A model generated the notes under the pieces. That model saw nothing but the letters and a program-made list of their open reading frames with translations. It was not told where the DNA came from and made no database searches. This document shows positions 27,797 to 55,266 of a DNA stretch of 64,000 nt, in pieces. Source of the DNA: Tricholomella constricta. Lineage: Eukaryota; Basidiomycota; Agaricomycetes; Agaricales; Lyophyllaceae. The position numbers and the translations under genes were made by a program. Numbering within the stretch: position 1 is the stretch's first letter; the number at the start of each line of letters is the position of its first letter. The stretch covers positions 554,121-618,120 of the forward strand of contig JAACJP010000028.1 of the NCBI GenBank assembly GCA_013368375.1, in the 5' to 3' direction.

Positions 27797-27799
27797 TCA
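27795..27799 (-). promoter_or_regulatory. In-frame UGA-CUC at gag-pro/pol boundary
   Basis: The stop (minus strand TGA then CTC) separates protease from pol with no change of frame. GypA1 has TGA-CTC at the homologous codon (12896). A cytosine directly after UGA is a known leaky context. Read-through is inferred. Confidence 0.55.
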
Positions 27800-30420: not shown

Positions 30421-30778
30421 TGTCACGACCGTCCCTAATCGACCACCCCTAAACTCCCACCTTCTACGCTTTCCCACGCACGTCCGCGGTACATATATGA
30501 CACCACTTTCTTCTTTGACACTTTACCTCGATATTGCTTATTGTTACGACTAGTCTCTGTTCTCGGTTTCTTTTCCACTCTCAATCTATTCTGTTTCTTT
30601 CACTCGTATCTCTTGAGCTCCACACGTTCTCGTAAACGCTCTCGTGAACGCCTTCGTCGACGCTCACGACCTCCGGATATCCTATTCGAAGGCCGTCTTC
30701 CTCAACGAACGTCAGGCCTGTCCGCTTCGGTGGTTCCAGAACACTTCTGTAACCGGCGTGCTACACAGAGTCCTAACA
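30421..30778 (+). repeat. GypB1 5' LTR (358 bp)
   Basis: TGTCACGACCG to GTCCTAACA. TATA-like ACATATATGA at 30491-30500. ACCTCGATATT at 30525-30535, about 32 bases downstream, is the expected RNA start and is complementary to the primer site after the LTR. Confidence 0.95.
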
Positions 30779-30790
30779 TAATATCGAGGT
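30779..30790 (+). promoter_or_regulatory. GypB1 primer-binding site, complementary to its own LTR
   Basis: TAATATCGAGGT adjoins the LTR. Its last 11 bases are the reverse complement of ACCTCGATATT at 30525-30535. It does not start with the TGG expected for a tRNA 3' end. This is the arrangement of self-priming Tf1/sushi-type elements. Confidence 0.7.
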
Positions 30791-30807
30791 CCTCCCACCC
30801 ACCGGAC

Positions 30808-33699: not shown

Positions 33700-33704
33700 A
33701 TCGC
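33660..33704 (+). promoter_or_regulatory. -1 ribosomal frameshift signal, GypB1 gag/pol
   Basis: Slippery heptamer G-GGA-AAC (33660-33666) in gag phase, a 6-base spacer, then a perfect 9-bp stem GCGATTCAG (33673-33681) with CTGAATCGC (33696-33704). The pol frame is -1 relative to gag and is open through this point. The gag TGA lies in the 3' arm. Identical in GypB2. Confidence 0.85.
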
Positions 33705-36700
33705 GAAGACCTAAAACCGGACCTTAACACTAAACTACGCGCAACGGCATTATCGACAACGGACACCCGCACAGTAACCCTCTCCTCCCATTCGTCACTG
33801 GCATTCCTAATACACCTCACGCCAAACGGAGGAGGAGAAGATCCCGAAAACACGCTCATCGACAGCGGAGCTACCGACAACTTCATGGACTCCGTCATGG
33901 CGACATCACGTGGGCTCCACCTTGAGGAGCTCAACCCCCCAATAAACCTCTGCCTATTCGACGGAGAACTCTCCGCATCAGGCAAAATCACACACTATAC
34001 CACCAACGACGTCGAATTCAGCGACGGCACCACTCAGAGGATAAGATTCCTCATAACGAAACTCCACGAGACAGCGACGATAGTACTGGGACTATCATGG
34101 CTGAAGGAGGTCAACCCCCGCATAAATTGGAAAGACCTCTGCATCACGCTACGACGGGGGTCAAACGGCAAAATCGAAGGATCACTACCGGACCTCCGAA
34201 GAAAAAAGGAAGTCGCTCCAACAACAACAGGTACAGGAGCTCAACGCTTACCCTCGCGGTCGGCTCGCTCCTTCACGATCGAAGTACAGTTGGAGGGATC
34301 TGCAACGCGTCTACGGGCACTTATTGATAGTGGGGCGGCGGGCAACTTCATAACAAAATCCTCGTGTACGAAGCCGGAACCTCTCGCCAACCCCATGACC
34401 CTACAACTGTTCGACGGAAACCCCAGCGGAGGCGGAGCCATTTCACACCATAGTCCCGAAACGATCAAACTCGAGAACGGACTAGAGTATAAGGTCGACC
34501 TCCTCATAACACAGTTACATCCAGCCACACCAGTAGTGCTTGGATTACCTTGGTTACGGGAAGCAAATCCGGACATCGACTGGCGGGAAATGTCCATGAC
34601 CATGGAACAAGGGGCAGGACTAGCCGCGATATCGCTTTCCCAGAAGACGCAATGGGGAACCGTGACCCTTGAGGAGGAGGAAGACGTCGAAGCTCCGAAA
34701 CCAGCCAACCCCCTTTCGGAAAAACAACCCCTCCTCAGGGACATCCTGGACAACGATAACGACCAGAAAGACACCTCCAACGACATCAAGAAGGAGGAAG
34801 ACACCCGCCCAAACACCAACAAACCCCAAGAGGAAGTACCAACACCGACAACCGAGTCGCCAGAGGAGGTAACGGGACGGAAACGCACCCGAAAACCACC
34901 CCCACCGAACTACTTCCCTCCAAACGTTCCGAGGTCCAAATTCAAACCTCACCCCAAACGAAAATCCGCAACGTCCCCAACGACAGAAACACAGGAAGAA
35001 GAGGAAACCAACCCGGAAACGGAGGTCGAAGATGAAACCGGAGAGGGAGAAGAGGATGTCGAAACACAAAACATCCGCCTGATCGGAGCGGCGCCATTCG
35101 CGAACCTCATCAGGGACGGAGCCACAGCGTTCCAACTACACATCTCCCCCACCGAAAAGGAAGAACACCTCCATGCCAATAACACCTCCGACGACGAACC
35201 CAAACAACCAAAGACAGAAAAGGAAATCTTTGAGGAAGTCGTACCTCCGGAGTACAGGGACTTCGAAGACGTATTCTCAGCGGGCGAAGCGAAAACCATC
35301 CCCCCACACCGACCTTACGATCACACAGTGGAACTCGACGAAAACACTACCCCTCCCTTCGGAAAGATATACAACATGTCCGAACTGGAGTTGAAAGCAT
35401 TGAAGGATTACATCGACGAGATGCTCGGTAAAGGGTTCATCCGACCTTCGAGTTCATCAGCGGGAGCTCCGGTACTGTTCGCAAAGAAGAAGGACGGATC
35501 ACTCCGGTTATGCGTGGACTATAGAGGATTAAATCGGATCACCAAGAAGAACCGTTACCCTCTACCTCTGATCGGAGACCTCATAGACCGACTTCAAAAA
35601 GCAAAAGTATACTCGAAGATCGACCTCCGAGTGGGCTACAACAACGTCCGCATAGCTCCGGGACACGAATGGAAGACAGCCTTCCGCACTCGCTATGGAC
35701 TTTTCGAATACCTGGTAATGCCCTTCGGCATGACAAACTCACCCGCGACGTTCCAACACTTCATGAACGACATCTTTCACGACATGAACGACGTGTTCGT
35801 AGTGATCTATCTCGACGACATTCTGGTTTTCTCGGAGACCTTAGAGGAACATCACGGACACGTTCGGAAGGTCCTCGAGAGGCTCCGGAAACACAACCTT
35901 CATGCGAAACCGGAGAAATGCACGTTTCACACTACGGAGATCGAGTATCTAGGCGTCATTGTATCCCCTGGCGGAGTAAAGATGGATCCAGGAAAAGTCG
36001 ACGCGATCCGGAAGTGGCCTAGACCGACGAAGGTCAAGGAACTCCAATCTTTCCTAGGTTTTGCAAACTTCTATCGGCGGTTTATCGACAATTACTCGGG
36101 CATAACGAAGAGGCTAAACAAACTCACGCAAAAGGACACAATCTGGAAATGGGATTCCGAATGCGAAGGAGTTTTCGAGCTATTGAAGAAAGCATTCTCC
36201 TCCGCACCCATCCTACGACACTTCGATCCTCAACTACCGGTGATACTAGAGTGCGATGCTTCCGACTTTGCCATAGCAGGAATCATCTCCCAATTCGACG
36301 AGACATCGCAAGACCTACGTCCCGTCGCCTTCTATGCGAGAACCATGATAGACGCGGAGCTCAACTATGACATCTACGATAAGGAGCTCCTAGCGATCGT
36401 TGAAGCGTTTAAACAATGGAGAGCCTACCTCGAGGGATCCCCCCACCGCATTCAAGTGTACTCCGACCACAACAACCTACAGTACTTCTCCACGACCAAG
36501 CAACTCAGTCGCAGACAAGCACGATGGTCGGAATGCCTGGCGAACTTCGACTTCCAAATAAACTACAGACCGGGAAGACTAGGAGCGAAGCCAGATGCCC
36601 TCACACGACGAGCGGACGTATATCCTAAGAAGGGTTTCGAACAGGATCATAATTCGTTCAATAACCGCATCATCATACCCCCCGAACGGTTGAACGCATC

Positions 36701-38522
36701 CCTAATTCTAAACGAACAACTCCTGTTGAACAACGTTCGTAATGCACCCCGAGATGACTTCTTCGAGAAATACGCACCCAAACCTGGAGACAAGTCCTCC
36801 GCGTTCTCACTATCCGACGACCACAAGCTACTCCTTCGCGACGGAAGAATCTACGTACCGAACCATTCCAGATTACGCCTCGACATCCTGCAGCAACATC
36901 ACGATCACAAACTACGTGGACATCCAGGAATCAGAAAGACCACACAACTCATCATGAGGACTTATTTCTGGCCCGGATTACGGAAGGAGGTCACCCGATA
37001 CGTCCGAAGTTGCCACACTTGCAAAAGAGCGAAGGTCCCGCGCCACAGCCCATATGGATTGCTGAAACCGCTTCAGATCGGACGACGGGCGTGGGCCTCC
37101 ATATCTATGGACCACATCGTGGAATTACCGGAATCGGATGGGTACGACGCCATCTTGGTCGTAGTATGCCGCCTCACAAAACAAGGCATCTTCATACCCT
37201 GTCACACAACGGACACAGCGAAGGAGCTCGCACAACTGTTCCTAGAACACGTCTTCTCCAAGCACGGATTACCCGATGACATCATCTCCGACAGAGGCAC
37301 TCTCTTCGTCTCCCGTTTTTGGAGCTCGCTGTGCAAAGCCCTGGACATCAAATCGAACCTTTCGACCGCGTATCACCCGGAGACCGACGGCCAGATGGAA
37401 CGAGTAAATCAGACACTGGAACAGTACCTCCGGATGTACGTGAACTACCTCCAGACCAACTGGCGAACACAGCTCCCACTGGCGGAATTCACGTATAACA
37501 ATACGACCCATTCAACCACGGGAGTCTCTCCTTTCTTTGCGAACAAAGGCTATCACCCCCGCCTGACAATCTCTATAAAAGACATACCGGCAAGGGAAGC
37601 CCAGGAGGTAGCCGTCGACCTCCGGACCCTCCAGGACTACCTCCGCCAAGAGATAGAGATCGCAAACGAAGCCTACAAACGATTCGCGGACAAGAAACGG
37701 GACCCTACACCAGACTGGGCCGTAGGAACGGAGGTATGGCTTGACTGCCGGAATATCAAAACGAAACGCCCCTCCAAAAAGCTGGACCACCGGAGACTGG
37801 GCCCCTTCAAAATCCTACAGAAGATCTCCAGCCACGCGTACCGTCTGGAACTACCTCCGGCATTGAAGGGAATTCACAATGTTTTCCACGTCAAATTACT
37901 CGAAGAACACAAACACGAGAACTTCCCAGGAAGGTCAAAGCCACCTCCGCAGACGATCGAAGTCGAGGGCGAAGAGCACTATGAAGTAGGACAAATCCTA
38001 GACTCCAGGACACGAGGGAGGCGCGTCTTTTACTTGGTACGATGGGAAGGGTACGGCCCCGAAGACGACACATGGGAACCAGCAGAGAATACAGAAGGAG
38101 CAGGGGTAGCGAGGGGGGACGACAACAACATGGAGGGAGGGCAAGACTGTAGAGCTGGAAGAGCTGGCGTTGGAAAATTCGAAACAGACGAGCCCTTTAA
38201 AAAGAGAGGCTCGACAGGGGGAGTATCGGGGGACACCGCGCGCGTAGCGCCCGACAAAGGAGGGGCCAAAAGAGGAGAAGTCGGCGCCGCGGGAGAAAGG
38301 GAAGGGGAACGAGACACGGACGAAGGCCGCCTCCCCAGCCCCTGCAGACCAGATCGCCCACCCCCACGACTAACAGACACTAATTTTCGACCCTGCCCTC
38401 GAGTACCTCGAAAAATGGCGCGTGGAGGCGAAACACGGCTAACGCTCATGGCGGCCTCATCACCAGAAGACGAAGTCAGGGAAAGGACCTCCGCAGAGGG
38501 CACGGAGACAAGGGAGTTTTGA
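33667..38522 (+). CDS. GypB1 pol: two proteases, RT, RNase H, integrase, chromodomain, aberrant tail
   Basis: Reached by a -1 shift. Two retropepsin-like domains stand in tandem: [10 protein letters not shown] at about 33855 and [10 protein letters not shown] at about 34320, each followed by a VLGLSWL or VLGLPWL segment. Then an acidic linker, RT ([28 protein letters not shown]), RNase H ([22 protein letters not shown]), integrase ([43 protein letters not shown]) and a chromodomain ([23 protein letters not shown]). After [10 protein letters not shown] the frame enters antisense-gene DNA through a deletion at 38097-38102, so the last 140 residues are not native. The enzyme domains themselves look complete. 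Confidence 0.92.
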
Positions 38523-39301
38523 AAAGAAGGCGGCGCCACACGCAAGACGCGACGGATGGCGACGAAGGACATCGCGACACCAGTACGAGAAAAAGTGAAC
38601 CCTTCGACACGGGATTGAAGCCACGCCAAGGGGATGCCCAACTGCCTAGCCGCCACTTCTAGGCCATGATCGAGCGAAAGCGAGCACAAGGAGTGCGCCG
38701 CACGACAATCAACACAAGGCAGGGTCCCGCGAAGACGGACCTCCTGAAATTGACAAGGCTGCTGACGCCCCCGACAACGATCGCACTAACGAAGAACCCA
38801 AAACGGAATCAGCTAAAGCGATCGACTCGATCACAGAAGGAGGGCGACACTTACCGGCGCATGCGCCTCACACCATGCCAAGGAGGGAGGAACCCGCACA
38901 GCGGTACGCAACACCTCCGCCAAAATCGCATCCGTCAACAACGACCCCCAGGATAAGGAGGTGGCCGCCGGACGCGATACAGGATCACTAGCCAGTTCAA
39001 ACTCGGCCTCAGGAGTGACGGAACGAGGACGCCGGATTTGTCGAGATCGGTTAGGAAGACGGATGGTGAGACGAGGGACGGGGGGCGTAGAGGGAGCAGG
39101 GGAAGAGTCAGGGATCGTCGAAACGCCCCCATCGATAAGAGTGACGATCTCAGGCAGAGAGGAGGTGGGAGAAGCAGGTTGGGGCACGCCCAAGAACGCG
39201 ACGCGCGCTCGATCTTCAGCGGACAAGCGCGCCAATTCCTCATCGTGTAAAATTCGGGCAGCGGAGGCAGAGGACGCGGAATCTTGGTGGGACCTCGACA
39301 T
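38030..39301 (-). pseudogene. GypB1 antisense gene, 5' part only
   Basis: Opposite strand to the element, between pol and the 3' LTR. Exon 1 39301-38855 (447 nt, MSRSHQDSASSASAARI...), intron 38854-38744 (GTAAGT...CAG), exon 2 from 38743. The protein has the same blocks as the intact copy in GypB2: SDPVSRPAATSLSWG, AILAEVLRTAVRVPPSLAWC, and the Cys/His cluster GTLPCVDCRAAHSLC. At 38097-38102 a deletion joins exon 2 to pol; the frame then stops at 38030. The coiled coil and the third exon are lost. Exon 1 length and intron position agree with GypB2 although the N-terminal half has diverged strongly. Confidence 0.8.
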
Positions 39302-39499
39302 GAAGAGAAGTGAGGATTGGAAGAGGAAAAAACAACTGGAATTTTCTCTATTCGGTCTCCGAGATCCTCAAAACACCCACAAGGACCCACAAACAATCTA
39401 GACCGCACGTGCCCCTCACGTGACCGCGCACACGCGAGAACAAAAACACAAAAAACTTTACTCTCCTTGCATTCGAAAAGCTGCCCCGCGTCTCAGTGG

Positions 39500-39522
39500 C
39501 TCGACGCTTGAGGAGGGGGTAA
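39500..39522 (+). other. GypB1 polypurine tract
   Basis: GAGGAGGGGGTAA directly before the 3' LTR, the usual plus-strand primer position. Confidence 0.8.
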
Positions 39523-39880
39523 TGTCACGACCGTCCCTAATCGACCACCCCTAAACTCCCACCTTCTATGCTTTCCCACGCACGTCCGCGGTACATATAT
39601 GACACCACTTTCTTCTTTGACACCTTACCTCGATATTGCTTATTGTTACGACTAGTCTCTGTTCTCGGTTTCTTTTCCACTCTCAATCTATTCTGTTTCT
39701 TTCACTCGTATCTCTTGAGCTCCACACGTTCTCGTAAACGCTCTCGTGAACGCCTTCGTCGACGCTCACGACCTCCGGATATCCTATTCGAAGGCCGTCT
39801 TCCTCAACGAACGTCAGGCCTGTCCGCTTCGGTGGTTCCAGAACACTTCTGTAACCGGCGTGCTACACAGAGTCCTAACA
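39523..39880 (+). repeat. GypB1 3' LTR (358 bp)
   Basis: Matches the 5' LTR with two differences seen (C/T at the CTACGC/CTATGC site and T/C in ACTTTACC/ACCTTACC). Followed by TSD GTAGA. Confidence 0.95.
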
Positions 39881-40758: not shown

Positions 40759-43700
40759 GCAGAAACACTCGAGGTCGACATGTGGCTTGCCGTTGGGGAG
40801 GAGCCCAAGACCAGCATCGACTGGATCACACATACCAACGCCAACGCCCCCGACATCGCTCTCTCGAGCATTACTCCCCTGCAACAGACGCAACGCACGC
40901 CACTTGTATCCCTCGACGAACATCCATTCTACCTAGATACTGGTGCGACGGTACATATTTCCCCCGACGCGTCCGACTTCTACTCCCTTCGACCCATCCC
41001 AGCGAGGCCCATCCGAGGCGTCAGCGGCTCCTCAATTGCCGCAGTCAGAATAGGGAAGATCCGCCTCCGAGTCGCCAGAGGCGCGTACATCATCCTGGAC
41101 GACGCTCTCTATGTCCCCAAGTCCACCGTTCGCCTCCTCTCCGTCGGTTCCATGTCCGATCACTCCGAGACCGTCACCTCCTTCGATACCACTGGTGCAA
41201 AAATCTACAATAAGTCGACGGGAGCCCACATTGCCAACGCCACTCGTCTCCAAGCCTCTGGCAAACGTCTATACGCGCTCAACCTACACTCCGCCCAAGC
41301 CGAACATACCCTTGCGGCGCAACATGCTCCTGATCTCGAGACCTGGCATCGCCGGCTCGGCCACGCCAACTACCAATCCATCATGGAAATGGCGAAGGCA
41401 GGAATGATCAAAGGTATGCCCTCTTCCTTTCCCTCCAAACCGCCCAAATGTGAACACTGTATCCTCGGAAAGCAGTCCAGGAAACCGGTTCCAAAGGCGA
41501 GGGAGGAGGGAGCGGGGCATAGAGCGAAGCGGAAGCTCGGAATTGTATGGATAGATCTTACCGGCGAATCGGCTGTACCTTCACGCTCTGGACACATATG
41601 CATGATGAATTTAGTGGATGACTACACCAATAAGCCCTGGTCGGTCCCCCTCAAACGCAAAAGCGAGGCGTTCCCAGAACTCAAAGCATGGATCCTCGCA
41701 CGCGAGGCCGAAACAGGACTCAAAGTCGGTATCATCCGCACTGGGCACGATGGCGAATTAAAGAGCAAAGAAGCGGAGGCATGGTTCAAGGAACGCGGTA
41801 TCGCGCAACAATTTGGCGCCCCATATACTTCCGCGCACATGGGACGAGTCGAGCGCATGCACCGCACGCTCATGGGGAAGGCACGCACGATGCGCATCGC
41901 AGCCGGTTGTCCCCCGTTTCTCTGGGACGAGTTCTACCTTACCGCTACTCATCTCACCGGGAAAACCAAGACGTCATCACTTAAAAACGCGACACCAGAT
42001 GAACTCTGGTACGATAAGAAACCGGACTACTCGTACATGCGCGAAATCGGATGCCGCGCCTTCGTGCTGATCCTCAACAAACATAACCCAAAAATATACG
42101 AACGATCAATTGAGTGCATCTTAATTGGCTATGATCGCGCAGCTAAAACGTACAGGTGTTACGATAAAGCGACAAAGAAGGTGTACAGCACCTATCACGT
42201 CCGTTTCCTGGAAAGCCACGACGGCCATCCACCAGCTCCCATTCCAGCCAATACCAAACCTCAACCAGATGACTTCCCTTCCCTCAGCGACATCGTAGAC
42301 AGTGCCACTGAAGAGCCCCCGGTCGTCCTTCATGATGAACACCCACTACCAGAACCTCTTGATCCCATCCAACCACAGCCCACTGAACCGATTCCCGAAG
42401 ACGATCCACCTAACGAGCGCCGATCTAAGCGAACCACGATCCCCACTGCCAAAGCTAACCCCGACAATCCTATCGAGACTCGGACAGAGAAGGCGATACG
42501 GGAATCCAGAGAAGCAGGAGAGCGCCTGAAGGATGCACGAGCGGAACGGAAGCAGGCACTTGAGGATCTCCGACGCGCAGCAGAAGCCAGACCGCCGGAT
42601 CAGGACCCTGACGTACGTGCCGCCGATCGAGAATTCGATCAAATCCTGGCTGCCCTGATGTCGATCGACGGAGCACCTGACATTGATCCGACGGCCCTGG
42701 ACTCCGACGAACCGAAAACATGGGAGGAGGCGCAAAGTTCACCTGACGCTAAACTCTGGGAAGCAGGCTATCGCGAGGAACTCAAATCATTGAAGGACAT
42801 GGGCGTCTACAAGTTAGTCCCTCGGGACGAGGTCCCCGAGGGACACAAGATCCACAAGGGGAAGCCGGTCTTCACGCTCAAGCGAGACGAAACCGGGAAG
42901 ATCACCCGCCACAAAGTTCGTGTTGTACTGAAAGGTTTCAATCAGGTATACGGACAGGATTATACGAAGACTACCTCACCTACAGCACGTATGGAATCAT
43001 GGCGGATCCTCCTCCACCTGGCAGCCTCATTCGGTTGGGACGCGATTCAAATCGATGTCAAGACCGCTTTCCTATACGGTATTCTACCTCCGGAGGAGAC
43101 GATATACATGGCCCAGCCTAGAGGCTTCGAGGAGCCAGGAAAGGAAAACTGGGTATGGAAACTGGAGAGGGGGCTCTACGGGATGAAACAGGCGGGACGG
43201 ATATGGAATAAGACGCTCAACGAGAACATGATCAAATGGGGATTCACTCGCCTAGCATGCGAATCGTGCGTCTACTACCGAAAGACTGACACTGGCACGA
43301 TCATTACAGCAGTTCACGTCGACGATTTCTTGTCTATCGCAAGCTCGAAAGATGAAAACGAACGCTTCAAAACCCAACTCAGCGAAGCTTGGACTATATC
43401 TGACCTCGGTACTCCACGCCACATCGTCGGGATAGCCGTCGAATGGGACCGCCCCAACCGATCCGTCCACCTATCGCAAACGCCGCTTATTGACAAAATC
43501 ATCTCCCAGTTCGGCCAAAAAGACGCTACCCCACTCTCGCTACCAATGGAGCCCGGACTTAAACTACGTCGCGTCGATCGGAAGACACTACCCCAGGAGG
43601 AGCAAAATTCCATTGACAAAATCCCCTATCGATCCCTCGTTGGCTGCTTACTATACCTCGCCATCTCTACCCGTCCAGATATCCAGTACGCCGTTCAACA

Positions 43701-44184
43701 GTTGACTCAATATCTTGATTGTTATTCCTACTTACACTGGAATGCCGGGATCCGACTCGTGCGATACCTGAAAGGAACTCGGGACTTAAAGCTCACGCTC
43801 GGTGGCGCAGGAACTATCGGACTTGTAGGCTTCACCAACTCGGACTGGGCTAACTGTTTAGACACCCGCCGAAGTATCGGGGGCTACGCATGGTCGCTGG
43901 GCTCGGGACTAGTATCCTGGGCATCACGAAAACAAAAGACGGTCGCCGCGTCGTCTTGCGAAGCTGAATACATGGCAGCTTTCGACTCAGCCCAGGAATG
44001 CATATGGCTCCGCGCCCTACTCCACGCCATCGGCCGCACCATCCATGGTCCCACCACCGTCCTCTGCGATAATAACGCTGCTATCAATTTATCCGAAGAT
44101 CCCTTGCTCCATTCCCGCGTCAAACACGTCGACATTAAATATCACTTCCTCCGCGAGCGCGTCGCATCTCAATCGCTACATTAA
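40759..44184 (+). CDS. Cop1 pol (3' part of gag-pol): protease, integrase, RT, RNase H
   Basis: Same phase as the gag part ending at 20751. Domain order is protease (FYLDTGATVHIS), GAG-pre-integrase (LETWHRRLGHANYQS...CEHCILGKQSRKP), integrase core (IDLTG; RTGHDGELKS; ERMHRTL), RT (VRVVLKGFNQVYGQDY; DVKTAFLYG; catalytic VHVDDFLSI with HVDD in place of the common YVDD), and RNase H (SSCEAEYMAAFDSAQE; DNNAAINLSED). This order, integrase before RT, defines copia elements. The stop at 44182 follows a one-base phase change near 44165; the expected ending (YINTKDNIADLFTKALP...) is in the next frame up to 44281. The loss affects only the last 35 or so residues. Confidence 0.92.
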   Translation, partial: AETLEVDMWLAVGEEPKTSIDWITHTNANAPDIALSSITPLQQTQRTPLVSLDEHPFYLDTGATVHISPDASDFYSLRPIPARPIRGVSGSSIAAVRIGKIRLRVARGAYIILDDALYVPKSTVRLLSVGSMSDHSETVTSFDTTGAKIYNKSTGAHIANATRLQASGKRLYALNLHSAQAEHTLAAQHAPDLETWHRRLGHANYQSIMEMAKAGMIKGMPSSFPSKPPKCEHCILGKQSRKPVPKAREEGAGHRAKRKLGIVWIDLTGESAVPSRSGHICMMNLVDDYTNKPWSVPLKRKSEAFPELKAWILAREAETGLKVGIIRTGHDGELKSKEAEAWFKERGIAQQFGAPYTSAHMGRVERMHRTLMGKARTMRIAAGCPPFLWDEFYLTATHLTGKTKTSSLKNATPDELWYDKKPDYSYMREIGCRAFVLILNKHNPKIYERSIECILIGYDRAAKTYRCYDKATKKVYSTYHVRFLESHDGHPPAPIPANTKPQPDDFPSLSDIVDSATEEPPVVLHDEHPLPEPLDPIQPQPTEPIPEDDPPNERRSKRTTIPTAKANPDNPIETRTEKAIRESREAGERLKDARAERKQALEDLRRAAEARPPDQDPDVRAADREFDQILAALMSIDGAPDIDPTALDSDEPKTWEEAQSSPDAKLWEAGYREELKSLKDMGVYKLVPRDEVPEGHKIHKGKPVFTLKRDETGKITRHKVRVVLKGFNQVYGQDYTKTTSPTARMESWRILLHLAASFGWDAIQIDVKTAFLYGILPPEETIYMAQPRGFEEPGKENWVWKLERGLYGMKQAGRIWNKTLNENMIKWGFTRLACESCVYYRKTDTGTIITAVHVDDFLSIASSKDENERFKTQLSEAWTISDLGTPRHIVGIAVEWDRPNRSVHLSQTPLIDKIISQFGQKDATPLSLPMEPGLKLRRVDRKTLPQEEQNSIDKIPYRSLVGCLLYLAISTRPDIQYAVQQLTQYLDCYSYLHWNAGIRLVRYLKGTRDLKLTLGGAGTIGLVGFTNSDWANCLDTRRSIGGYAWSLGSGLVSWASRKQKTVAASSCEAEYMAAFDSAQECIWLRALLHAIGRTIHGPTTVLCDNNAAINLSEDPLLHSRVKHVDIKYHFLRERVASQSLH

Positions 44185-44758: not shown

Positions 44759-45116
44759 TGTTAGGACCTGTGTAGCACGCCGGTTACAGAGTTATTCTGG
44801 AACCACCGAAGCGGACAGGCCTGACGTCCGTCAAGGAAGACGGCCTACAAAGGAGTATTCGGAGGTCGTGAGCGTTGACGGAGGTGTTCACCGGGGCTAA
44901 TTCGAACGAACGAGCTCAAGTGATACGGGTGCGAAGCCAAATAGATTGAGAGAGAGAGAGAGAAACGAGAACGAGAATCGAGAACTAGTCTTAACAATAG
45001 GTAATATCGAGGTAAGGTGTCCGAAAAGAAAGTGGTGTCATATATGTACGGCGGACGTGCGTGGGAAAGCGTAGTGGGTGTGACTTTAGGGGTGGTCGTT
45101 AGGGACGTTCGTGACA
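44759..45116 (-). repeat. GypB2 3' LTR (358 bp)
   Basis: Plus-strand limits TGTTAGGACC and GTTCGTGACA. Contains a (GA)n run and the TATATATG box. The following TTACCCCCTCCTC is the polypurine tract on the minus strand. Confidence 0.96.
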
Positions 45117-45335
45117 TTACCCCCTCCTCAAGCGTCGAGCCACTGAGACGCGGAAAAATGTTCGGATACGGGGAGTGTGGCGTTTGTTTTTCCTTTTTGG
45201 TGCGCGCGCGCGGTCACGTGAGGGGCACGTGAGGGCCTCGGTTGTGGGTCCTTGTGGGTGTTTTGAGGATCTCGGAGATCGAAAAAGAGAAAAACTTGGT
45301 CGTTTTTCTTCTTCTGTTTCCATTCTGTCGACCTC

Positions 45336-47332
45336 ATGTCGCCTGCTATGCCCCGTGTCGCGTCTCCTCCTCCTAATGCCCCCGCTTTGCGAGATCCGGA
45401 CGTGGCGCCTTTGATCGACGAAGATCGGTCGCGCGTCGCGTCCTTAGACGCGCCTCAACCCGTTTCCCCGGCGCCCTCTCTCCCTGGGATTGCCACCCTT
45501 CTCGATGGGAGTGACGGGGCGGTCCCCGAGTCGTCCCCCGTTCTTCTCCCACCTCCTGTCCCTCGTCTGATCATCCGCCTGCCCATTCGATCCCAACAGA
45601 TCCGTCGCCCTCGTTCCACCACTCCCGAGGCCGATTTCGAGTTTGCTAGTGACCCTGTGTCGCGTCCGGCGGCGACTTCGTTGTCGTGGGGGCCCCTCTT
45701 CACTGATGCGATTTTGGCGGAGGTGTTGCGTACCGCTGTGCGGGTTCCTCCCTCCTTGGCGTGGTGTGAGGCGCATGAGCCGGTATGTCGCCCTTCTTCT
45801 GCGATCGAGTCCAGCGTTTCAGCTGATTCCTTTTTGGGGTCTTCGTTAGTGTGATCGGTGTCGGACGCGTCGGCTGTCTTGTCGATTTCAGGAGGTTCGT
45901 CTTCGCGGGACCCTGCCCTGTGTTGAGTGTCGTGCGGCGCATTCCCTGTGCTCGCTTTCGTTGGACCATGGCCTAGAGGTGGCAGCTAGGCAGTTGGGAA
46001 TTCCGTTGGAGTGGCTTCGCTCTCGCGCCGAGGGTTTTACTTTCTCCCGCACTGGCGTTGCGATGTCTTTTACCAGCATCCGTCGCGCCCTGCGTTTGCC
46101 AATCCCGCCTCCTCTTCCCGCCGCCTCTTCGTCCGTTGTAGGGACTGGTGCCGTTTCACTTCCTCCTGCTCCCCCTCCTCGTGCTATTTTCCGTGGTACG
46201 CGAGGTCAGGGACGAAGGTCTGTGCCTGTCGGTCGTGGGGGTGCGCGCTTGTCTGTTCCGGAGGCGCGCCCTTCGCCTATGCCTGGTTATTCTCCTCCCC
46301 CCTCCGATAGCTCGGTTTCCCCTTTCCCTGTTCGTCGTCTTGGGGCCGCCATGCGTGCCGCTTCTCCGGATTCTCCCATCGTCGGGCCCTCGGAGCCTCT
46401 CTTTTTAAAGAGTTCGTCTGAATCGGTCTCTCCCTCACCGGTTCTGCACCAGGCTTCCCCTCCTGCTATGTTGATGTCGTCCCCCCCCGCTGCTCCTGCC
46501 CCTCTTGCTCCTTCGCCTGAGGAGCACCTCCGTCTTCGGCGCCTCTATGACCAGGAGGTCGCGCGTGCGCAGGCTTTGTCCCTCCAGGTAGAGCGTCTCC
46601 AGGCCGAGGGCGAACGCAACAAGGGTCGTTTTCGTGGAGTCCTAGCCGAACTCGCCGACGAGCGTGAACGTTTCCTTCATCTGCAGGCGCAGACATCGAG
46701 TGCCGTGGAGGTCGTCGACGTCGATCGTGACGCCGAGGTCGAGGATCTGCGGATGGAGGTTGCGGGTCTTGAGGATGAGGTTGCGGGTCTGAAGGGGCAC
46801 GTCGTCCATCTCCAGGGGGTTCGGGACTATTGGCGTGGTCATGCCTTGGACCTTCGCGTTCGCACCGATGGTGAGTCTTTCTTTTGTCTTCTTTTGTTCT
46901 CTTTTTTCACCTCCGGAATTTGTTGTAGCTCTTGAGCTTGCGCGTGTTGCTTTCGCATCCGATATGTTTGTTGCGGATGGCGCTCTGCGTCGCGCCCTCG
47001 TCGAGATGGAGGCGTCGCCGGTCCGGGGTATCGTCGACGCCGCTCACCAGATTCTTGAGCAGCATTCTCTCCGCGAGCTTTTTCGCCCTCCCGTCGATCC
47101 CGAGTCCCCTTTTCCCGCCTTCGAGCATTTCCTTGCTCTTCATCGTCCATCTCTCACTCGTGAAGACGCCCTTGCGGGGTTCGTGTCTCAGTCTCAATTG
47201 ATCGCCGACGACGAGCAGGATATCGCGTCGATGCTTCCTCTGGAGGTAGGGGTGGTTGGGGAGGTGGGGGTTGGGCGCGAGGACGGTTCCTCTGCCAGTG
47301 CAGGTCCCTCCAAGCGTCGTCGCATCGAGTAG
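45336..47332 (+). CDS. Spliced antisense gene inside GypB2, 609 aa, unknown function
   Basis: Three exons on the strand opposite to the element: 45336-45782, 45892-46870, 46929-47332; introns 45783-45891 (GTATGT...CAG) and 46871-46928 (GTGAGT...TAG). Phases agree at both joins and the total is 1,830 nt. Residues 1-105 are Pro/Ser-rich. About 100-150 is conserved with GypB1 (SDPVSRPAATSLSWG; AVRVPPSLAWCEAH). The exon 1/2 join gives GTLPCVECRAAHSLC, a Cys/His cluster that may bind zinc. Then a Pro-rich stretch, a coiled coil at about 345-440 (LRLRRLYDQEVARAQALSLQ; LRMEVAGLEDEVAGLKGHV), a helical acidic part, and a C-terminal SKRRRIE that could be a nuclear signal. It starts about 220 bases inside the 3' LTR, so that LTR may act as an antisense promoter. 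No known family recognised. Confidence 0.8.
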
Positions 47333-47551
47333 ACGGTCTTTTTCGCGGTGTCTTGGACTTCCTTCATTTCCTTTTGCCAAATATTTACACCTGAAGTTCG
47401 TTTATTTTTATTTTATTTTTTTTCTTCTTGGTATCGTTTCTCTTTCGTAATGTTGTTGTCCAGGAGGTACGAATACATATAACACAGTTTGTCTTCTTGA
47501 AATGGATTTGCATAATTTTTCGTGATGTGCATGAGTGTTCGTCGAGTCGTT
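47333..47551. other. Spacer between the convergent antisense gene and pol of GypB2
   Basis: T-rich on the plus strand (TTTTATTTTATTTTTTTTC around 47405), which probably serves as the 3' end region of the antisense gene. No frame of note. Confidence 0.5.
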
Positions 47552-50500
47552 TTAAATCGTGGGGTCCCGTGGCTTTCTTGGGAAAAGTCGGTGGAATTCG
47601 AGGGCCATGTCTTTTGCTCCCTCCATATTCTCCGCTGGTTCCCAGGTATCGTCTTCGGGGCCGTACCCTTCCCATCGTACCAAGTAGAGGACGTGTTTCC
47701 CTCGTGTTCGGGAATCTAGGATTTGTCCCACTTCGTAGTGTTCTTCGCCCTCGACTTTGATCGTCTGCGGAGGTGGTTTTGATCGTCCAGGGAAATTCTC
47801 GTGTTCGTGCTTCTCGAGTAACTTGACGTGGAATACGTTGTGAATCCCTTTCAGTGTCGGAGGTAGTTCCAGTCGATACGCATGGCTGGAAATCTTCTGC
47901 AGGATTTTGAAGGGGCCCAGTCTCCGGTGGTCTAGCTTTTTGGAGGGGCGTTTCGTTTTGATGTTCCGGCAGTCGAGCCATACCTCCGTTCCTACAGCCC
48001 AGTCTGGTGTAGGGTCCCGCTTCTTGTCCGCGAATCGTTTGTAGGCTTCGTTTGCGATCTCTATTTCTTTGCGGAGGTAGTCCTGGAGGGTCCGGAGGTC
48101 TACGGCTACCTCCTGGGCTTCTTTCGCCGGTATATCTTTTATAGAGATTGTCAAGCGGGGGTGATAACCCTTGTTCGCAAAGAAAGGGGAAACTCCCGTG
48201 GTCGAATGGGTCGTATTGTTATACGTGAATTCCGCCAGAGGGAGCTGTGTTCGCCAGTTGGTCTGGAGATAGTTCACGTACATCCGGAGGTATTGTTCCA
48301 GTGTCTGATTTACTCGTTCCGTCTGGCCGTCGGTCTCCGGGTGATACGCGGTCGAAAGGTTCGATTTGATGTCCAGGGCTTTACATAGCGAGCTCCAGAA
48401 ACGGGAGACGAAGAGGGTGCCTCTGTCGGAGATGATGTCATCGGGCAGTCCGTGCTTGGAGAAGACATGTTCCAAGAATAGCTGAGCAAGTTCCTTTGCT
48501 GTGTCCGTTGTGTGACAGGGTATGAAGATGCCTTGCTTGGTGAGGCGGCATACTACGACCAGTATGGCGTCGTACCCATCCGATTCCGGTAATTCTACGA
48601 TGTGGTCCATGGATATGGAGGCCCACGCCCTTCGCCCAATCTGGAGTGGTTTCAATAATCTGTATGGGCTATGGCGTGGGACCTTCGCTCTTTTACAGGT
48701 ATGACAGCTTCGGACGTATCGAGTGACCTCCTTCCGTAATCCGGGCCAGAAATAAGTCCTCATGATGAGTTGTGTGGTCTTTCTGATCCCTGGATGTCCG
48801 CGCAGTTTGTGATCGTGGTGTTGCTGTAGGATGTCGAGTCGTAATCTGGAATGGTCTGGTACATAGATTCTTCCGTCGCGAAGGAGTAGTTTGTGATCAT
48901 CGGATAGGGAGAATGCGGAGGTCTCTTCTCCGGGTTTGGGTGCATGCCTTTCGAAGAAATCGTCTCGGGGTGCGTTCCGGACATTGTTTAGTAGGAGCTC
49001 CTCGTTCAGTATTAGGGCCGCGTTCAATCGTTCGGGGGGTATGATGATGCGGTTGTTGAACGAATTATGATCCTGCTCGAAACCCTTCTTTGGATACACG
49101 TCCGCTCTTCGCGTAAGGGCATCTGGCTTCGCTCCCAGTCTTCCGGGTCGATAGTTTATCTGGAAGTCGAAGTTCGCCAGGCATTCCGACCATCGTGCTT
49201 GTCTGCGACTGAGTTGTTTGGTCGTGGAGAAGTACTGTAGGTTGTTGTGGTCGGAGTACACTTGAATGCGGTGGGGAGATCCCTCTAGGTAGGCCCTCCA
49301 TTGTTTAAACGCTTCCACGATTGCTAGGAGCTCCTTGTCATAGATGTCGTAGTTGAGCTCCGCGTCTATCATAGTTCTCGCGTAGAAGGCGACCGGACGT
49401 AAGTCTTGTGATGTCTCGTCAAATTGGGAGATGATCCCCGCTATGGCGAAGTCGGAGGCATTGCACTCTAGTATCACCGGTAGTTGAGGATCGAAGTGTC
49501 GTAGGATGGGTGCGGAGGAGAATGCTTTCTTCAATAGCTCGAAGACTCCTTCGCATTCGGAATCCCATTTCCAGATTGTGTCCTTTTGCGTGAGTTTATT
49601 TAACCTCTTCGTTATGCCCGAGTAATTGTCGATAAACCGCCGATAGAAGTTTGCAAAGCCTAGGAAGGATTGGAGTTCTTTGACCTTCGTCGGTCTAGGC
49701 CACTTCCGGATCGCGTCGACTTTTCCTGGATCCATCTTTACTCCGCCGGGGGATACGATGACGCCTAGATATTCGATCTCCGTAGTGTGAAACGTACATT
49801 TCTCCGGTTTCGCATGAAGGTTGTGTTTCCGGAGCCTCTCGAGGACCTTCCGAACGTGTCCGTGATGTTCCTCTAAGGTCTCCGAGAAAACCAGAATGTC
49901 GTCGAGATAGATCACTACGAACACGTCGTTCATGTCGTGAAAGATGTCGTTCATGAAGTGTTGGAACGTCGCGGGTGAGTTTGTCATGCCGAAGGGCATT
50001 ACCAGGTATTCGAAAAGTCCATAGCGAGTGCGGAAGGCTGTCTTCCATTCGTGTCCCGGAGCTATGCGGACGTTGTTGTAGCCCACTCGGAGGTCGATCT
50101 TCGAGTATACTTTTGCTTTTTGAAGTCGGTCTATGAGGTCTCCGATCAGGGGTAGAGGGTAACGGTTCTTCTTGGTGATCCGATTTAGTCCTCTATAGTC
50201 CACGCATAGCCGGAGTGATCCGTCCTTCTTCTTTGCGAACAGTACCGGAGCTCCCGCTGATGAACTCGAAGGTCGGATGAACCCTTTACCGAGCATCTCG
50301 TCGATGTAATCCTTCAATGCTTTCAACTCCAGTTCGGACATGTTGTATATCTTTCCGAAAGGAGGGGTAGTGTTTTCGTCGAGTTCCACTGTGTGATCGT
50401 AAGGTCGGTGTGGGGGGATGGTTTTCGCTTCGCCCGCTGAGAATACGTCTTCGAAGTCCCTGTACTCCGGAGGTACGACTTCCTCAAAGATTTCCTTTTC

Positions 50501-52050
50501 TGTCTTTGGTTGCTTGGGTTCGTCGTCGGAGGTGTTATTGGCATGGAGGTGTTCTTCCTGTTCGGTGGGGGAGATGTGTAGTTGGAACGCTGTGGCTCCG
50601 TCCCTGATGAGGTTCGCGAATGGCGCCGCTCCGATCAGGCGGATGCTTTGTGTTTCGACATCCTCTTCTCTCTCTCCGGTTTCGTCTTCGACCTCCGTTT
50701 CCGGGTTGGTTTCCTCTTCTTCCTGTGTTTCTGTCGTTGGGGACGTTGCGGGTTTCCGTTTGGGGTGGGGTTTGAATTTGGACCTCGGAACGTTTGGAGG
50801 GAAGTAGTTGGGTGGAGGTGGTTTTCGGGTGTGTTTCCGTCCCATTACCTCCTCTGGCGACTCAGTTGTCGGTGTTGGTACTTCCTCTTGGGGTTCGTTG
50901 GTGTTTGGGCGGGTGTCTTCCTCCTTCATGTTGTCGCTGGAGGTGTCGTTCTGATCGTTGTCGTCGTCCAGGAGGTCCCTGAGGAGGGGTTGTTTTTCCG
51001 AAAGGGGGTTGGCTGGTTTCGGAGCTTCGACGTCTTCCTCCTCCTCAAAGGTCACGGTTCCCCATTGCGTCTTCTGGGAAAGCGATATCGCGGCTAGTCC
51101 TGCTCCTTGTTCCATGGTCATGGACATTTCCCGCCAGTCGATGTCCGGATTTGCTTCCCGTAACCAAGGTAATCCGAGCACTAATGGTGTGGCTGGATGT
51201 AACTGTGTTATGAGGAGGTCGACCTTATACTCTAGTCCGTTCTCGAGTTTGATCGTTTCGGGACTATGGTGTGAAATGGCTCCGCCTCCGCTGGGGTTTC
51301 CGTCGAACAGTTGTAGGGTCATGGGGTTGGCGAGAGGTTCCGGCTTCGTACACGAGGATTTTGTTATGAAGTTGCCTGCCGCCCCACTATCAATAAGTGC
51401 CCGTAGACGCGTTGCAGATCCCTCCAACTGTACTTCGATCGTGAAGGAGCGAGCCGACCGCGAGGGTAAGCGTTGAGCTCCTGTGTCTGTTGTTGTTGGA
51501 GCGACTTCCTTTTTCCTTCGGAGGTCCGGTAGTGATCCTTCGATTTTGCCGTTTGACCCCCGTCGTAGCGTGATGCAGAGGTCTTTCCAATTTATGTGGG
51601 GATTGACCTCCTTCAGCCATGATAGTCCCAGTACTATCGTCGCTGTCTCGTGGAGTTTCGTTATGAGGAATCTTATCCTCTGAGTGGTGCCGTCACTGAA
51701 TTTGACGTCGTTGGTGGTATAGTGTGTGATTTTGCCTGATGCGGAGAGTTCTCCGTCGAATAGGCAGAGGTTTATTGGGGGGTTGAGCTCCTCAAGGTGG
51801 AGCCCACGTGATGTCGCCATGACGGAGTCCATGAAGTTGTCGGTAGCTCCGCTGTCGATGAGCGTGTTTTCGGGATCTTCTCCTCCTCCGTTTGGCGTGA
51901 GGTGTATTAGGAATGCCAGTGACGAATGGGAGGAGAGGGTTACTGTGCGGGTGTCCGTTGTCGATAATGCCGTTGCGCGTAGTTTAGTGTTAAGGTCCGG
52001 TTTTAGGTCTTCGCGATTCAGAGCCCGGGCAAGTCCTGAATCGCCCCCGC
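47552..52050 (-). CDS. GypB2 pol: two proteases, RT, RNase H, integrase, chromodomain
   Basis: Nearly identical to the pol of GypB1 but with its native C-terminus (chromodomain [20 protein letters not shown], then LEFHRLFPRKPRDPTI and stop at 47552). It is entered by a -1 shift at 52051-52057. Both DSGA protease motifs are present (about 51850 and 51390). The RT box is YLDDILVFS. The RNase H carries CNASD where GypB1 has CDASD, which would change a catalytic Asp to Asn. Integrase D-D-E residues are kept ([33 protein letters not shown]). Otherwise this is the best reference for the family. Confidence 0.93.
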
Positions 52051-52057
52051 GTTTCCC
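52013..52057 (-). promoter_or_regulatory. -1 ribosomal frameshift signal, GypB2 gag/pol
   Basis: Same as in GypB1: GGGAAAC on the minus strand at 52057-52051, 6-base spacer, 9-bp stem 52044-52036 with 52021-52013. Full conservation of heptamer, spacing and stem. Confidence 0.85.
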
Positions 52058-54879
52058 TCTTCTGTCTTGTGATGGAATTCGAAGATGTCGTCGCCGATGA
52101 GGTAGGTGGCTCTGCCCATGGCGTTTGCTGTTGGGCAGTCGCGCATCCAGTGTTCCAGGTCACCGCATAGGATGCAGGCCTTGTCTCGAATTCGTTGTTG
52201 CTTTACGTCTTCGTCAATCTTCACCCAGGGGCGTGTTGACTTCTTGAAACCGAAGTTGTTGGCTTGTAGGGCCTCCTCGTCGTCCCATGCGATTTTCTGG
52301 TCTTGCGCCTTACCTTCCCTACCTGAGTCCGGGTCCTGATCATGACTTTCGGCGTTCAAGCGTGCGTTCCTGTTCCCTTGAGCCGTTTGCGGCGTCGTGC
52401 GGCTTGCGGGTCCGGCCGAAGGTCCCATCGGAGGTCGTGCGGAGGTGTTGGGGGCGTTCGCGTTATTCGCCCAGAGGGGTTTGTAGGACTCTGGATTTTC
52501 TATGCGATGTTCCCAGTACCTCTGATCGATTTGAGTGACCAGATCTCGGTAACCTTCGTAGGTTTCGGGGCTTGGTGCGATGGCCAGGACGTTAAGGATT
52601 CGCTGGGGGAGCGCTTTCCGGAGTGTGAACTGTAGTGCTACCCAGTTCCAGCCTGTTTCGTACGCTTCTTGTTCGAACTTGATGATGAATGCTGTGAACT
52701 TTTCCCATTCCTTCATTTTCAGTCGCGAAATGTTGTTCTCGGCTTCCACTCTCGAGTTCGGTATTCCGAAGCGTGATCCTAATTCGTGTACGAATCCTTC
52801 CCAATTCGTGAACATCGGGTGTTGGGGGTTGTACGTGAGTTGCAGCCGAAAGTAGTCCATAGCTCCGTCCTTTAAGTAGGAGCTCGCGAATGACACCTTC
52901 AGGTGATCCTGTTCGTAGGTGATCGCCTTGGCTTGAAACGTTACTAGGCATTCCGTGACGAAGGTTTTCCATCTCCTCGGTTCTTTTCCAGTGAAGGGGT
53001 CCGGTTTCCTGATGTCGATTTTCGATTCCAGGTTTAGGAGGTGTCGGTACTGTTCCGGGGTCAGGTTTTGGTTTGGGCCTAAGAGCTGTTGCGGTGGAGG
53101 TGGGGGTCGTTGAGGGTTTGCGAATTGGCCTCCTCCCGGATTTCCGGGTGGGCCTCCTCCTCCTCCTCCTCCGTGGCCTCCTCCTCCCCCTCCGGGACCT
53201 CCGTGGCCTCCCGGGCCTCCTGGTCCTTGTGGTGGTCCGTATCCTCCGTGACCTCCCCCTCCTCCAGGACCTCCTGTTCCTCCGGGGCCGTTTCCCCAAT
53301 AACCTCCTCCTCCCCCTCCTGGTCCTCCGGGGCCGTTTCCCCATTGAGTTCCTCTCGGGGTAGGTGGTCCCGAGGATCTCGGAGGTGGTTGGGGCTGTGG
53401 AGGGGGTCCGTTGTACTGGGGGTTCGGTCGTCCGCCGGGTATGGGTGGGGCTGGTCCGGGGTTGTAGCCAGTTCTGTATTGTTCGAACTGGGGGAATTGT
53501 TGTTGGGTCCCTTGCCTTCCGTCGAGGATGGTTACGTTTTGACCGGGGCCGGGGTCCGCTCCGATTCCACGGCGTTCTCTTGGGGAGATTGGGCGTGGGC
53601 CTTGCGGTGACCTCCTGTTCTGGTTCGCCAGGTGAGGTGGTGTTTGGCGCCAGTCTTCTCGTGTCCTTGGGGGTGCTCCTCTTTCTTCTCGGTTTTCTTC
53701 GCGTAATTCGTAGCTATGAGCGTACGACAGCGGCGTTGGGATTCCTTGTTCCGACGGAGGTAGGGGAATATTCTCGGGTTCCCTCTGAGGAGCTCCTTCT
53801 TCCCTTGCGGAGGTCCTTTGTGGGCCTTGAAAACCCGAGTTTGGCCTGGAGAATGGTCCTTCGAAAGAGGGGTTCTCTTCGGGGATCCTTTGCAAATTTT
53901 GGGCTCCCCAGAATCCGAACGTCGGAGCTCTTCGAGCGTCTGTCCCTGGTGTGACGGTGGGTTCGAACCCTTCTTGGCTGGGGGGTGCGTTCCCTTGGTT
54001 CATCCTCCTGAGTAGAGCCGAAGCTGTCTGCGTATTGACAGTGCTTGTCGCTCGTGGAGGTTCTTCGAATCTAGTTTCAATTCTGGAGGGAATGGGCTCC
54101 TGAATTGGCATGTGGAAGGAACGTCCCGCGCTTTGGTGGTTGGAGAATCTTCTTCCCTCGTTGGACGTCTGGATTTCTCCAGCCAGGGCGCGTAACCTTT
54201 TTTCGTTTCCCCCCATTTGTAGCAACACCGTCAGTTGTGGGGGTAATCGATGGGCTTCGTGCAGTTGTATGGTCGACAACACGAGGTTGGCCCATTGTTC
54301 CGGTGTTCGGGGTTGATGATCCATCCCCATGGTTTCGACTAGGAGCTCGTGCGCTTGTCGCGAAAACTCTTCCCGCGTCATGCGGAGCTCGTAGAGTATC
54401 CTTTCGTGGTCTGAACCGTGTAGGAAGGGGTTTTGTTGACGAGCGAAGTGTCCCTGTCCCTCCTCCCGAGCCCTATCCCTCCTCTGGAACATCTCCGGGT
54501 GCCTCAACCTTTCGTAGTATGACCCGGGAGTCTGGTTACTTGAAGGCGGAGGTCCGGAGGCCGTTGCGGATGGTGGTAAGGGGGGATAGTTGGGGGTGGC
54601 GAGTTGGTAGGACGGGTTGAATACGTTTGAGGGGGTCCGGGGTAGGGGTCGTCGAGGGTCCTGACTGGCTGAGGAAAAGTCCCCCTCGTGTTGGCCTGGT
54701 TGGAAAATGTTGTGTTCCAGCCTGGACCTGTTGGTTCCGAAGGTCCCTTGCATCATGTGTCCTGTTGAGGCAGGGGAGGTTTCGAAAGGTGGTGGTGAAG
54801 GTCTTCTTTGTGTGAAAGAGGGACCTTCGAAGTTTTGATAGCGGACTGTGGTGTTGGGCTCCACTATCGTCGAGGACAT
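52018..54879 (-). CDS. GypB2 gag, 953 aa
   Basis: Homologue of the GypB1 gag starting [19 protein letters not shown]. It has the same plan: disordered Pro/Gln/Arg-rich half, glycine-rich tract (about 53115-53350, different length from GypB1), structured Gag domain ([18 protein letters not shown] through LRKALPQRILNVLA), and CCHC knuckle [14 protein letters not shown]. The N-terminal third differs from GypB1 more than the Gag domain does, and the glycine tract differs by insertions. The stop at 52018 falls in the frameshift stem. Forms the particle shell and binds RNA. Confidence 0.92.
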   Translation of the reverse strand: MSSTIVEPNTTVRYQNFEGPSFTQRRPSPPPFETSPASTGHMMQGTFGTNRSRLEHNIFQPGQHEGDFSSASQDPRRPLPRTPSNVFNPSYQLATPNYPPLPPSATASGPPPSSNQTPGSYYERLRHPEMFQRRDRAREEGQGHFARQQNPFLHGSDHERILYELRMTREEFSRQAHELLVETMGMDHQPRTPEQWANLVLSTIQLHEAHRLPPQLTVLLQMGGNEKRLRALAGEIQTSNEGRRFSNHQSAGRSFHMPIQEPIPSRIETRFEEPPRATSTVNTQTASALLRRMNQGNAPPSQEGFEPTVTPGTDARRAPTFGFWGAQNLQRIPEENPSFEGPFSRPNSGFQGPQRTSAREEGAPQREPENIPLPPSEQGIPTPLSYAHSYELREENREERGAPPRTREDWRQTPPHLANQNRRSPQGPRPISPRERRGIGADPGPGQNVTILDGRQGTQQQFPQFEQYRTGYNPGPAPPIPGGRPNPQYNGPPPQPQPPPRSSGPPTPRGTQWGNGPGGPGGGGGGYWGNGPGGTGGPGGGGGHGGYGPPQGPGGPGGHGGPGGGGGGHGGGGGGGPPGNPGGGQFANPQRPPPPPQQLLGPNQNLTPEQYRHLLNLESKIDIRKPDPFTGKEPRRWKTFVTECLVTFQAKAITYEQDHLKVSFASSYLKDGAMDYFRLQLTYNPQHPMFTNWEGFVHELGSRFGIPNSRVEAENNISRLKMKEWEKFTAFIIKFEQEAYETGWNWVALQFTLRKALPQRILNVLAIAPSPETYEGYRDLVTQIDQRYWEHRIENPESYKPLWANNANAPNTSARPPMGPSAGPASRTTPQTAQGNRNARLNAESHDQDPDSGREGKAQDQKIAWDDEEALQANNFGFKKSTRPWVKIDEDVKQQRIRDKACILCGDLEHWMRDCPTANAMGRATYLIGDDIFEFHHKTEEGNAGAIQDLPGL

Positions 54880-54896
54880 GTCCGGTGGGTGGGAGG

Positions 54897-54908
54897 ACCT
54901 CGATATTA
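54897..54908 (-). promoter_or_regulatory. GypB2 primer-binding site, complementary to its own LTR
   Basis: Minus strand TAATATCGAGGT adjoining the 5' LTR. It is the exact reverse complement (12 of 12) of ACCTCGATATTA inside the LTR (55163-55152 on the minus strand). Confidence 0.72.
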
Positions 54909-55266
54909 TGTTAGGACCTGTGTAGCACGCCGGTTACAGAGTTATTCTGGAACCACCGAAGCGGACAGGCCTGACGTCCGTCAAGGAAGACGGCCTACAA
55001 AGGAGTATTCGGAGGTCGTGAGCGTTGACGGAGGTGTTCACCGGGGCTAATTCGAACGAACGAGCTCAAGTGATACGGGTGCGAAGCCAAATAGATTGAG
55101 AGAGAGAGAGAGAAACGAGAACGAGAATCGAGAACTAGTCTTAACAATAGGTAATATCGAGGTAAGGTGTCCGAAAAGAAAGTGGTGTCATATATGTACG
55201 GCGGACGTGCGTGGGAAAGCGTAGTGGGTGTGACTTTAGGGGTGGTCGTTAGGGACGTTCGTGACA
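54909..55266 (-). repeat. GypB2 5' LTR (358 bp)
   Basis: Appears identical to the 3' LTR. It is only about 80% similar to the GypB1 LTR by eye, although the pol genes are almost the same. Confidence 0.96.

Follow-up and report, generated by a model that had tools for sequence, protein, structure and literature searches.

The window analysed here, a stretch of 64,000 nt from Tricholomella constricta, contains two Ty3/gypsy elements, GypB1 (30420-39880) and GypB2 (44759-55266). GypB2 has the make-up of a chromovirus, namely gag, a pol with the order RT-RNase H-integrase followed by a C-terminal chromodomain, and two LTRs (Table 1). In pol, the Pfam models RVT_1, RNase H, H2C2 and Chromo (49.4 bits) all score above their cut-offs, and the matches for protease, rve and gag stay below them. 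Since both LTRs are identical over 358 nt, the insertion is young. Opposite to gag and pol, and located between pol and the 3′ LTR, we found the intron-bearing antisense gene that the initial annotation had placed there (45336-47332, +): it is open, consists of three exons and two introns, and is separated from the pol end by 219 nt. The same gene was also correctly recognised in GypB1, where exon 1 likewise has 447 nt and a deletion near 38090 cuts the gene. This deletion joins the chromodomain to the middle of the antisense gene and creates a longer pol frame of 1545 aa. Besides, the neighbourhood includes a Ty1/copia pol ORF of 1134 aa (40780-44184, +) between GypB1 and GypB2, and another gypsy element (21140-29551, -) with gag (27797-29551), pol (23930-27757) and a weak chromodomain match. 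After its pol, the latter element carries a third gene in sense orientation, an ORF of 882 aa without a Pfam match and without a strong hydrophobic segment, which has 53 genomic matches with 93-100% identity, some representing fragments of one and the same copy.

Table 1. Features of the GypB2 element and of the antisense gene in GypB2 and GypB1 (positions within the window).
Feature	Position	Strand	Remarks
GypB2 3′ LTR	44759..45116	-	358 nt, identical to 5′ LTR
Candidate antisense promoter element	45212..45231	+	GGTCACGTGAGGGGCACGTG; two CACGTG palindromes at -121 and -110 from ATG
Antisense gene, exon 1	45336..45782	+	447 nt, residues 1-149; open; ATG at homologous place in other subfamilies
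Intron 1	45783..45849	+	67 nt, GTATGT...TTAG; branch-like CTGAT 27 nt before end
Exon 2	45850..46870	+	1021 nt, residues 150-489 and first base of codon 490
Zn(2)Cys(6)-like cluster	45850..45951	+	C-x2-C-x6-C-x12-C-x2-C-x6-C, residues 150-183
Long helical, coiled-coil-like region (AlphaFold2)	46516..46957	+	residues 372-499, spans intron 2
Intron 2	46871..46928	+	58 nt, GTGAGT...GTAG; splice sites kept between copies
Exon 3 with stop	46929..47332	+	conserved helical C-terminal part; dN/dS 0.11-0.24, residues 491-623
Nuclear-localisation-like basic run KRRR	47312..47323	+	residues 618-621
GypB2 pol	47552..51832	-	protease, RT, RNase H, integrase, chromodomain (Pfam)
GypB2 gag	52018..54879	-	CCHC knuckle; open frame; weak Pfam matches below cut-offs
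GypB2 5′ LTR	54909..55266	-	358 nt, identical to 3′ LTR
GypB1 antisense gene, exon 2	38090..38785	-	cut by deletion fusing exon 2 to pol chromodomain end; lower end approximate
GypB1 intron 1	38786..38854	-	69 nt
GypB1 antisense gene, exon 1	38855..39301	-	447 nt, ATG at 39301

For the structure of the gene, two details had to be revised. The initial annotation gave intron 1 a length of 109 bp in GypB2 and 111 bp in GypB1 and a product of 609 aa; our best reading is 67 and 69 bp, respectively, and 623 aa. The longer intron ends at a CAG acceptor (45891) that maintains the frame, yet it removes 14 codons together with three of the six conserved cysteines. We rejected it in view of the 42 nt that separate the acceptors, which show codon-like evolution: the three cysteine codons are retained and the other bases vary among copies. 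The public model P0001, which is 97% identical to the GypB2 product, reads on from the TTAG acceptor (45849), also has 623 aa and agrees with our model across both exon junctions. The earlier acceptor is therefore probably the right one, with use of both acceptors as a possibility. Splice sites occur at the same places in 14 aligned copies for intron 1 and in 13 for intron 2. All six tested copies contain a CTRAY-like branch site 27-33 nt from the 3′ end of intron 1, compared with two of six for intron 2. Intron 1 ends, in the 14 aligned copies, with a TAG that is in frame and directly precedes exon 2, so that splicing is needed to join exon 2 to exon 1. A second public model, P0002 (D9615_009035), in which the antisense gene is joined to part of a Ty1/copia RT, is probably an annotation artefact.

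The survival of introns through retrotransposition, as originally claimed, is borne out by standard donor and acceptor sites of intron 1 at 38 of the 39 gene-bearing loci (the exception, L044, has GTGGGT), although these copies are dispersed. Such introns survive because reverse transcription uses the RNA of the other strand, which lacks these splice sites. Furthermore, none of the listed genomic matches runs uninterrupted through a 129-residue query that bridges exons 1 and 2; the lack of an intronless copy among them indicates that the copies moved as sense RNA.

Several lines of evidence argue for selection on the encoded protein. Among copies, intron 1 has 58, 67, 69, 70, 72 or 75 nt and intron 2 has 52-60 nt, so that both vary in all phases irrespective of multiples of three. 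Exon 2 of intact copies measures 1012, 1021, 1042, 1048 or 1057 nt and thus changes in steps of three, a result that is partly circular, since "intact" was defined by the open frame; this circularity does not apply to the introns. Using ten intact copies, chosen such that copies with stops were left out, dN/dS between subfamilies was 0.19-0.32 at dS 0.43-0.85 (Nei-Gojobori), which substantiates the selection proposed by the initial annotation. Constraint is strongest in residues 101-185 (0.11-0.13) and 561-600 (0.11) and weakest in the Pro/Ser-rich linker of residues 236-330 (0.64). The same alignment read in four other frames yielded dN/dS values of 1.29, 1.70, 1.15 and 1.69. Constraint on the sense strand or a GC-rich composition could also leave an open frame as a side effect, and the mirror frame, with a dN/dS of 0.38 likewise below 1, as well as the many shorter chance ORFs in the region would be in line with this. 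However, stops are found in every other frame, with 7-27 in each of the sense-strand frames of five representatives, and the intron lengths change in all phases. We therefore consider this explanation largely refuted and highly improbable.

The constraint is also visible among young copies. Fifteen intact recent copies carry 32 synonymous and 40 nonsynonymous variants (pN/pS 0.46); measured against an expectation from transitions only, it is weaker, the ratio of nonsynonymous to synonymous variants being 1.25 compared to 1.92 expected. Frame breaks or a dN/dS near 1 in most copies, named in the initial annotation as evidence against the gene, were looked for and did not appear. In the window subfamily, 16 of 21 genes are intact (the window copy and L009-L028), a proportion that leans upward because the best DNA matches supplied these 21 copies; of the 18 other copies (L029-L044, L046 and GypB1), 9 are intact and half are broken. 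L019 and L044 belong to the broken copies. Relative to L031, the old copy L033 (G000:C30:487926-490459) differs by numerous C-to-T and G-to-A changes; CpG sites account for about half of these (40 of 91 and 45 of 75, respectively), as expected from cytosine methylation.

The gene is by no means restricted to the two copies initially counted. In the searched genome (44.1 Mb, 118 contigs), we obtained 46 DNA matches and at least 110 matches to the start of exon 2, which makes the former count a large underestimate. The following numbers refer to the matches listed, a few of which are pieces of one copy. For 98 of the 110 exon-2 starts, a pol end of the same lineage is found no more than 3.5 kb away on the other strand; conversely, 102 of 112 pol ends (≥72% identity) are accompanied by the antisense gene, six of the remaining ten adjoining a truncated or interrupted gene copy. 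Pol ends of 41-44% identity represent a second gypsy family and were dropped from the counts; in the one copy examined, L045, the gene is absent over about 2.6 kb after pol, which implies that it is not generally needed. Within T. constricta, every examined subfamily of the chromodomain Ty3/gypsy group contains the gene. What the sequences thus establish is a protein-coding gene with introns that is conserved in antisense to a chromovirus and present in about a hundred copies. Could it be a host gene that was captured in antisense and travels as a passenger? Two spliceosomal introns are typical of host genes, the cysteine array resembles that of fungal host factors, and at 12 of the 110 listed exon-2 starts a pol end is missing nearby, which leaves room for a cellular copy. 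On the other hand, the subfamilies are far diverged at synonymous sites and yet under purifying selection, and the large majority of the listed copies sit beside a pol end of the same lineage, so that we give little credence to a passenger.

The antisense gene is more diverged than the adjacent coding regions. Between GypB1 and GypB2, identity amounts to 94.6-99.6% across most of pol and the final portion of gag, drops to 89-92% at the pol end and in the initial portion of gag, and falls further to 82% for the 3′ LTR block, with the antisense gene lowest at 66-76%; both elements look like mosaics. For L035, L036 and L039, the synonymous distance from the window copy is 0.60-0.74 in the antisense gene versus 0.23-0.33 at the pol end. 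Template-switching recombination between element lineages would explain these patterns, a possible alternative being a 3′ part that mutates faster. We also considered whether LTR and antisense gene evolve strictly together, which is unsupported, as exons are about 98-99% identical and LTRs only 86-92% in the same copies.

The most prominent feature of the predicted protein is a cysteine array. Fungal Zn(2)Cys(6) clusters follow the spacing C-x2-C-x6-C-x(5-16)-C-x2-C-x(6-8)-C, into which the array fits. All six cysteines occur in 36 of 37 fetched loci, with only the frameshifted L021 deviating, their spacing is common to five subfamilies, and dN/dS of the cluster (residues 150-185) is 0.11. Not one of 200,000 shuffles of the window protein reproduced this spacing. 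Together with a seventh conserved cysteine at position 144, these are the sole cysteines among the 623 residues of the window copy. While the UniRef name of P0001 is "Zn(2)-C6 fungal-type domain", PF00172 (Zn_clus) reaches 15.5 bits versus a cut-off of 21 and covers residues 144-164 only; for this reason, we call the cluster Zn(2)Cys(6)-like and do not treat the protein as a member. The mushroom protein shares the six-cysteine spacing with the PF00172 proteins of fungi but differs from them in the score below cut-off, in the additional conserved cysteine and in being encoded by an element. No Pfam domain exceeded its cut-off, Pfam scans gave no bZIP match, and an NCBIfam scan nothing meaningful. 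AlphaFold2 predicts helices at residues 372-431 and 442-499 (block means of pLDDT 57-77); the models of the whole protein and of the cysteine region, based on two rows each, are poor (mean pLDDT 44.5 and 53.0). Most intact copies possess SKRRR near the C-terminus (altered in L026, L028, L036 and L043), and we take the SKRRRIE end to resemble a putative nuclear localisation signal. Protein searches returned only two proteins, both from T. constricta, and no relative outside this species, partly scored on just 7,991 candidates, namely those sharing most words with the query, a limit that probably stems from the Pro/Ser-rich parts. Viral contigs (48 pattern matches) and PDB sequences contained no relative either.

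Upstream of the gene, a 20-nt block with two CACGTG motifs between the 3′ LTR and the ATG is unchanged in seven aligned upstream regions. Allowing up to one mismatch, it has 112 matches in the genome and the reversed pattern none; among the 100 listed, 94 stand 0.3-1.4 kb upstream of an exon-2 match on the same strand. The other six (G000:C11:111579, C20:365093, C1:990387, C3:1007053, C7:90922 and C14:194212) perhaps belong to truncated elements. CACGTG is the usual site of bHLH factors, and the block is a candidate control element that may serve the antisense or the sense transcript.

Taken together, these features suggest a mechanism in which a promoter in the 3′ LTR and the adjacent 219 nt, including the two CACGTG sites, would drive an antisense pre-mRNA, from which the nuclear spliceosome would excise the two short introns. 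The protein would then enter the nucleus, dimerise via its long helices, bind DNA through the Zn(2)Cys(6)-like cluster and control either transcription of the element or the site and frequency of its integration. We infer each of these steps, from transcription, splicing and nuclear import to dimerisation, DNA binding and regulation, from sequence features. On balance, we slightly favour the reading that the spliced antisense gene encodes such a nuclear DNA-binding regulator of element transcription or integration.

Two other roles have to be weighed against this regulator. The protein might act as a nuclear adaptor together with the integrase, assisting import of the pre-integration complex or choice of the site alongside the chromodomain of pol. 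This would agree with the occurrence of the gene throughout the chromodomain lineage (102 of the 112 listed pol ends) and with the conserved C-terminal helices, which could bind a partner; nevertheless, the Zn(2)Cys(6) spacing of the cysteines suggests DNA as the primary target, and the one examined copy of the second gypsy family lacks the gene. An adaptor is thus rather unlikely, albeit worth keeping in mind. Alternatively, the antisense RNA and not the protein could matter, by pairing with the sense transcript and feeding RNA silencing or by blocking elongation. Convergent transcription is built into the layout, and such a role has been raised for plant elements in the accessible part of PMC7264820. 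However, an RNA function alone predicts neither selection on codons (dN/dS about 0.26) nor introns that are free in length, so we judge it improbable.

Antisense accessory genes of LTR elements are already known from plants and from Boty, and the mushroom gene is a variant of that kind. The novelty that the initial annotation assumed was overstated with regard to fungi: the title of an article by Zhao et al. from 2011, cited in PMC8365987, reports the antisense gene brtn in Boty of Botrytis cinerea (Ascomycota), which like the mushroom gene would be an extra antisense gene of a fungal LTR element. Boty is also named in the available portion of PMC7264820. According to the same portion, the plant aORF-3R class (gene23 of Grande, RIRE2, Retand, PvRetro13) is defined by an antisense position between pol and the 3′ LTR and by retention in most copies, both of which we find for the mushroom gene, and gene23 is transcribed from a promoter of its own and its product is nuclear (PMC7264820). 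For antisense transcription from an own promoter, a further trait of the class, the mushroom element shows the conserved upstream sites as candidates. The antisense ORFs of Retand, a non-chromovirus lineage, are predicted to bind DNA, and most of those with a known domain carry Transposase 28, as far as the accessible text goes (PMC11963269). In contrast, the mushroom gene lacks a Pfam domain above cut-off, resides in a fungal chromodomain element and has two conserved introns, a word that does not occur in the accessible text on Retand (PMC11963269). The open-access literature on antisense genes of LTR elements, as far as its text was available (PMC7264820, PMC8365987, PMC11963269, PMC5408684, PMC2864245, PMC10186651), yielded only brtn of Boty, plant and retroviral cases and none from a mushroom, nor an antisense Zn2Cys6 ORF of a fungal LTR retrotransposon; the accessible text of a survey of chromoviruses (PMC2864245) contains neither "antisense" nor "additional ORF".

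A resemblance to retroviral antisense genes had been noticed from the start, and as far as the arrangement is concerned it is supported by the part of PMC10186651 at hand. There, hbz of HTLV-1 is described as antisense, spliced and driven from the 3′ LTR, HBZ as a nuclear bZIP regulator, and the antisense RNAs of another retrovirus are stated to be under the control of a 3′ LTR E-box (PMC10186651). Both hbz and the mushroom gene are antisense, with splicing and a 3′ LTR promoter being predicted in the mushroom element; HBZ, however, is a bZIP protein of an exogenous retrovirus, and the mushroom protein has a cysteine array and belongs to a retrotransposon. We use the likeness to HBZ and the deltaretroviral antisense genes as a working analogy that implies no homology; the closest known counterparts are brtn of Boty and the accessory genes that plant elements carry in antisense. 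More tentatively, and as a possibility that we hold with some reserve, a spliced antisense zinc-cluster transcription factor may regulate the fungal chromovirus in trans as a convergent counterpart of HBZ, which would be old (dS 0.43-0.85 within one genome) and whose protein would still be under selection.

There is no consensus on what antisense accessory genes do for LTR elements. In this mushroom, the combination of about a hundred copies in several diverged subfamilies, a clear signature of selection and a DNA-binding-like motif makes the role of such an antisense protein testable. Repeat masking may hide genes of this type, as only two annotated proteins of the family were found for T. 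constricta. Finally, the arrangement illustrates a route by which a retroelement can own a spliced gene: splice sites in antisense are invisible in the genomic RNA, and the introns are not lost.
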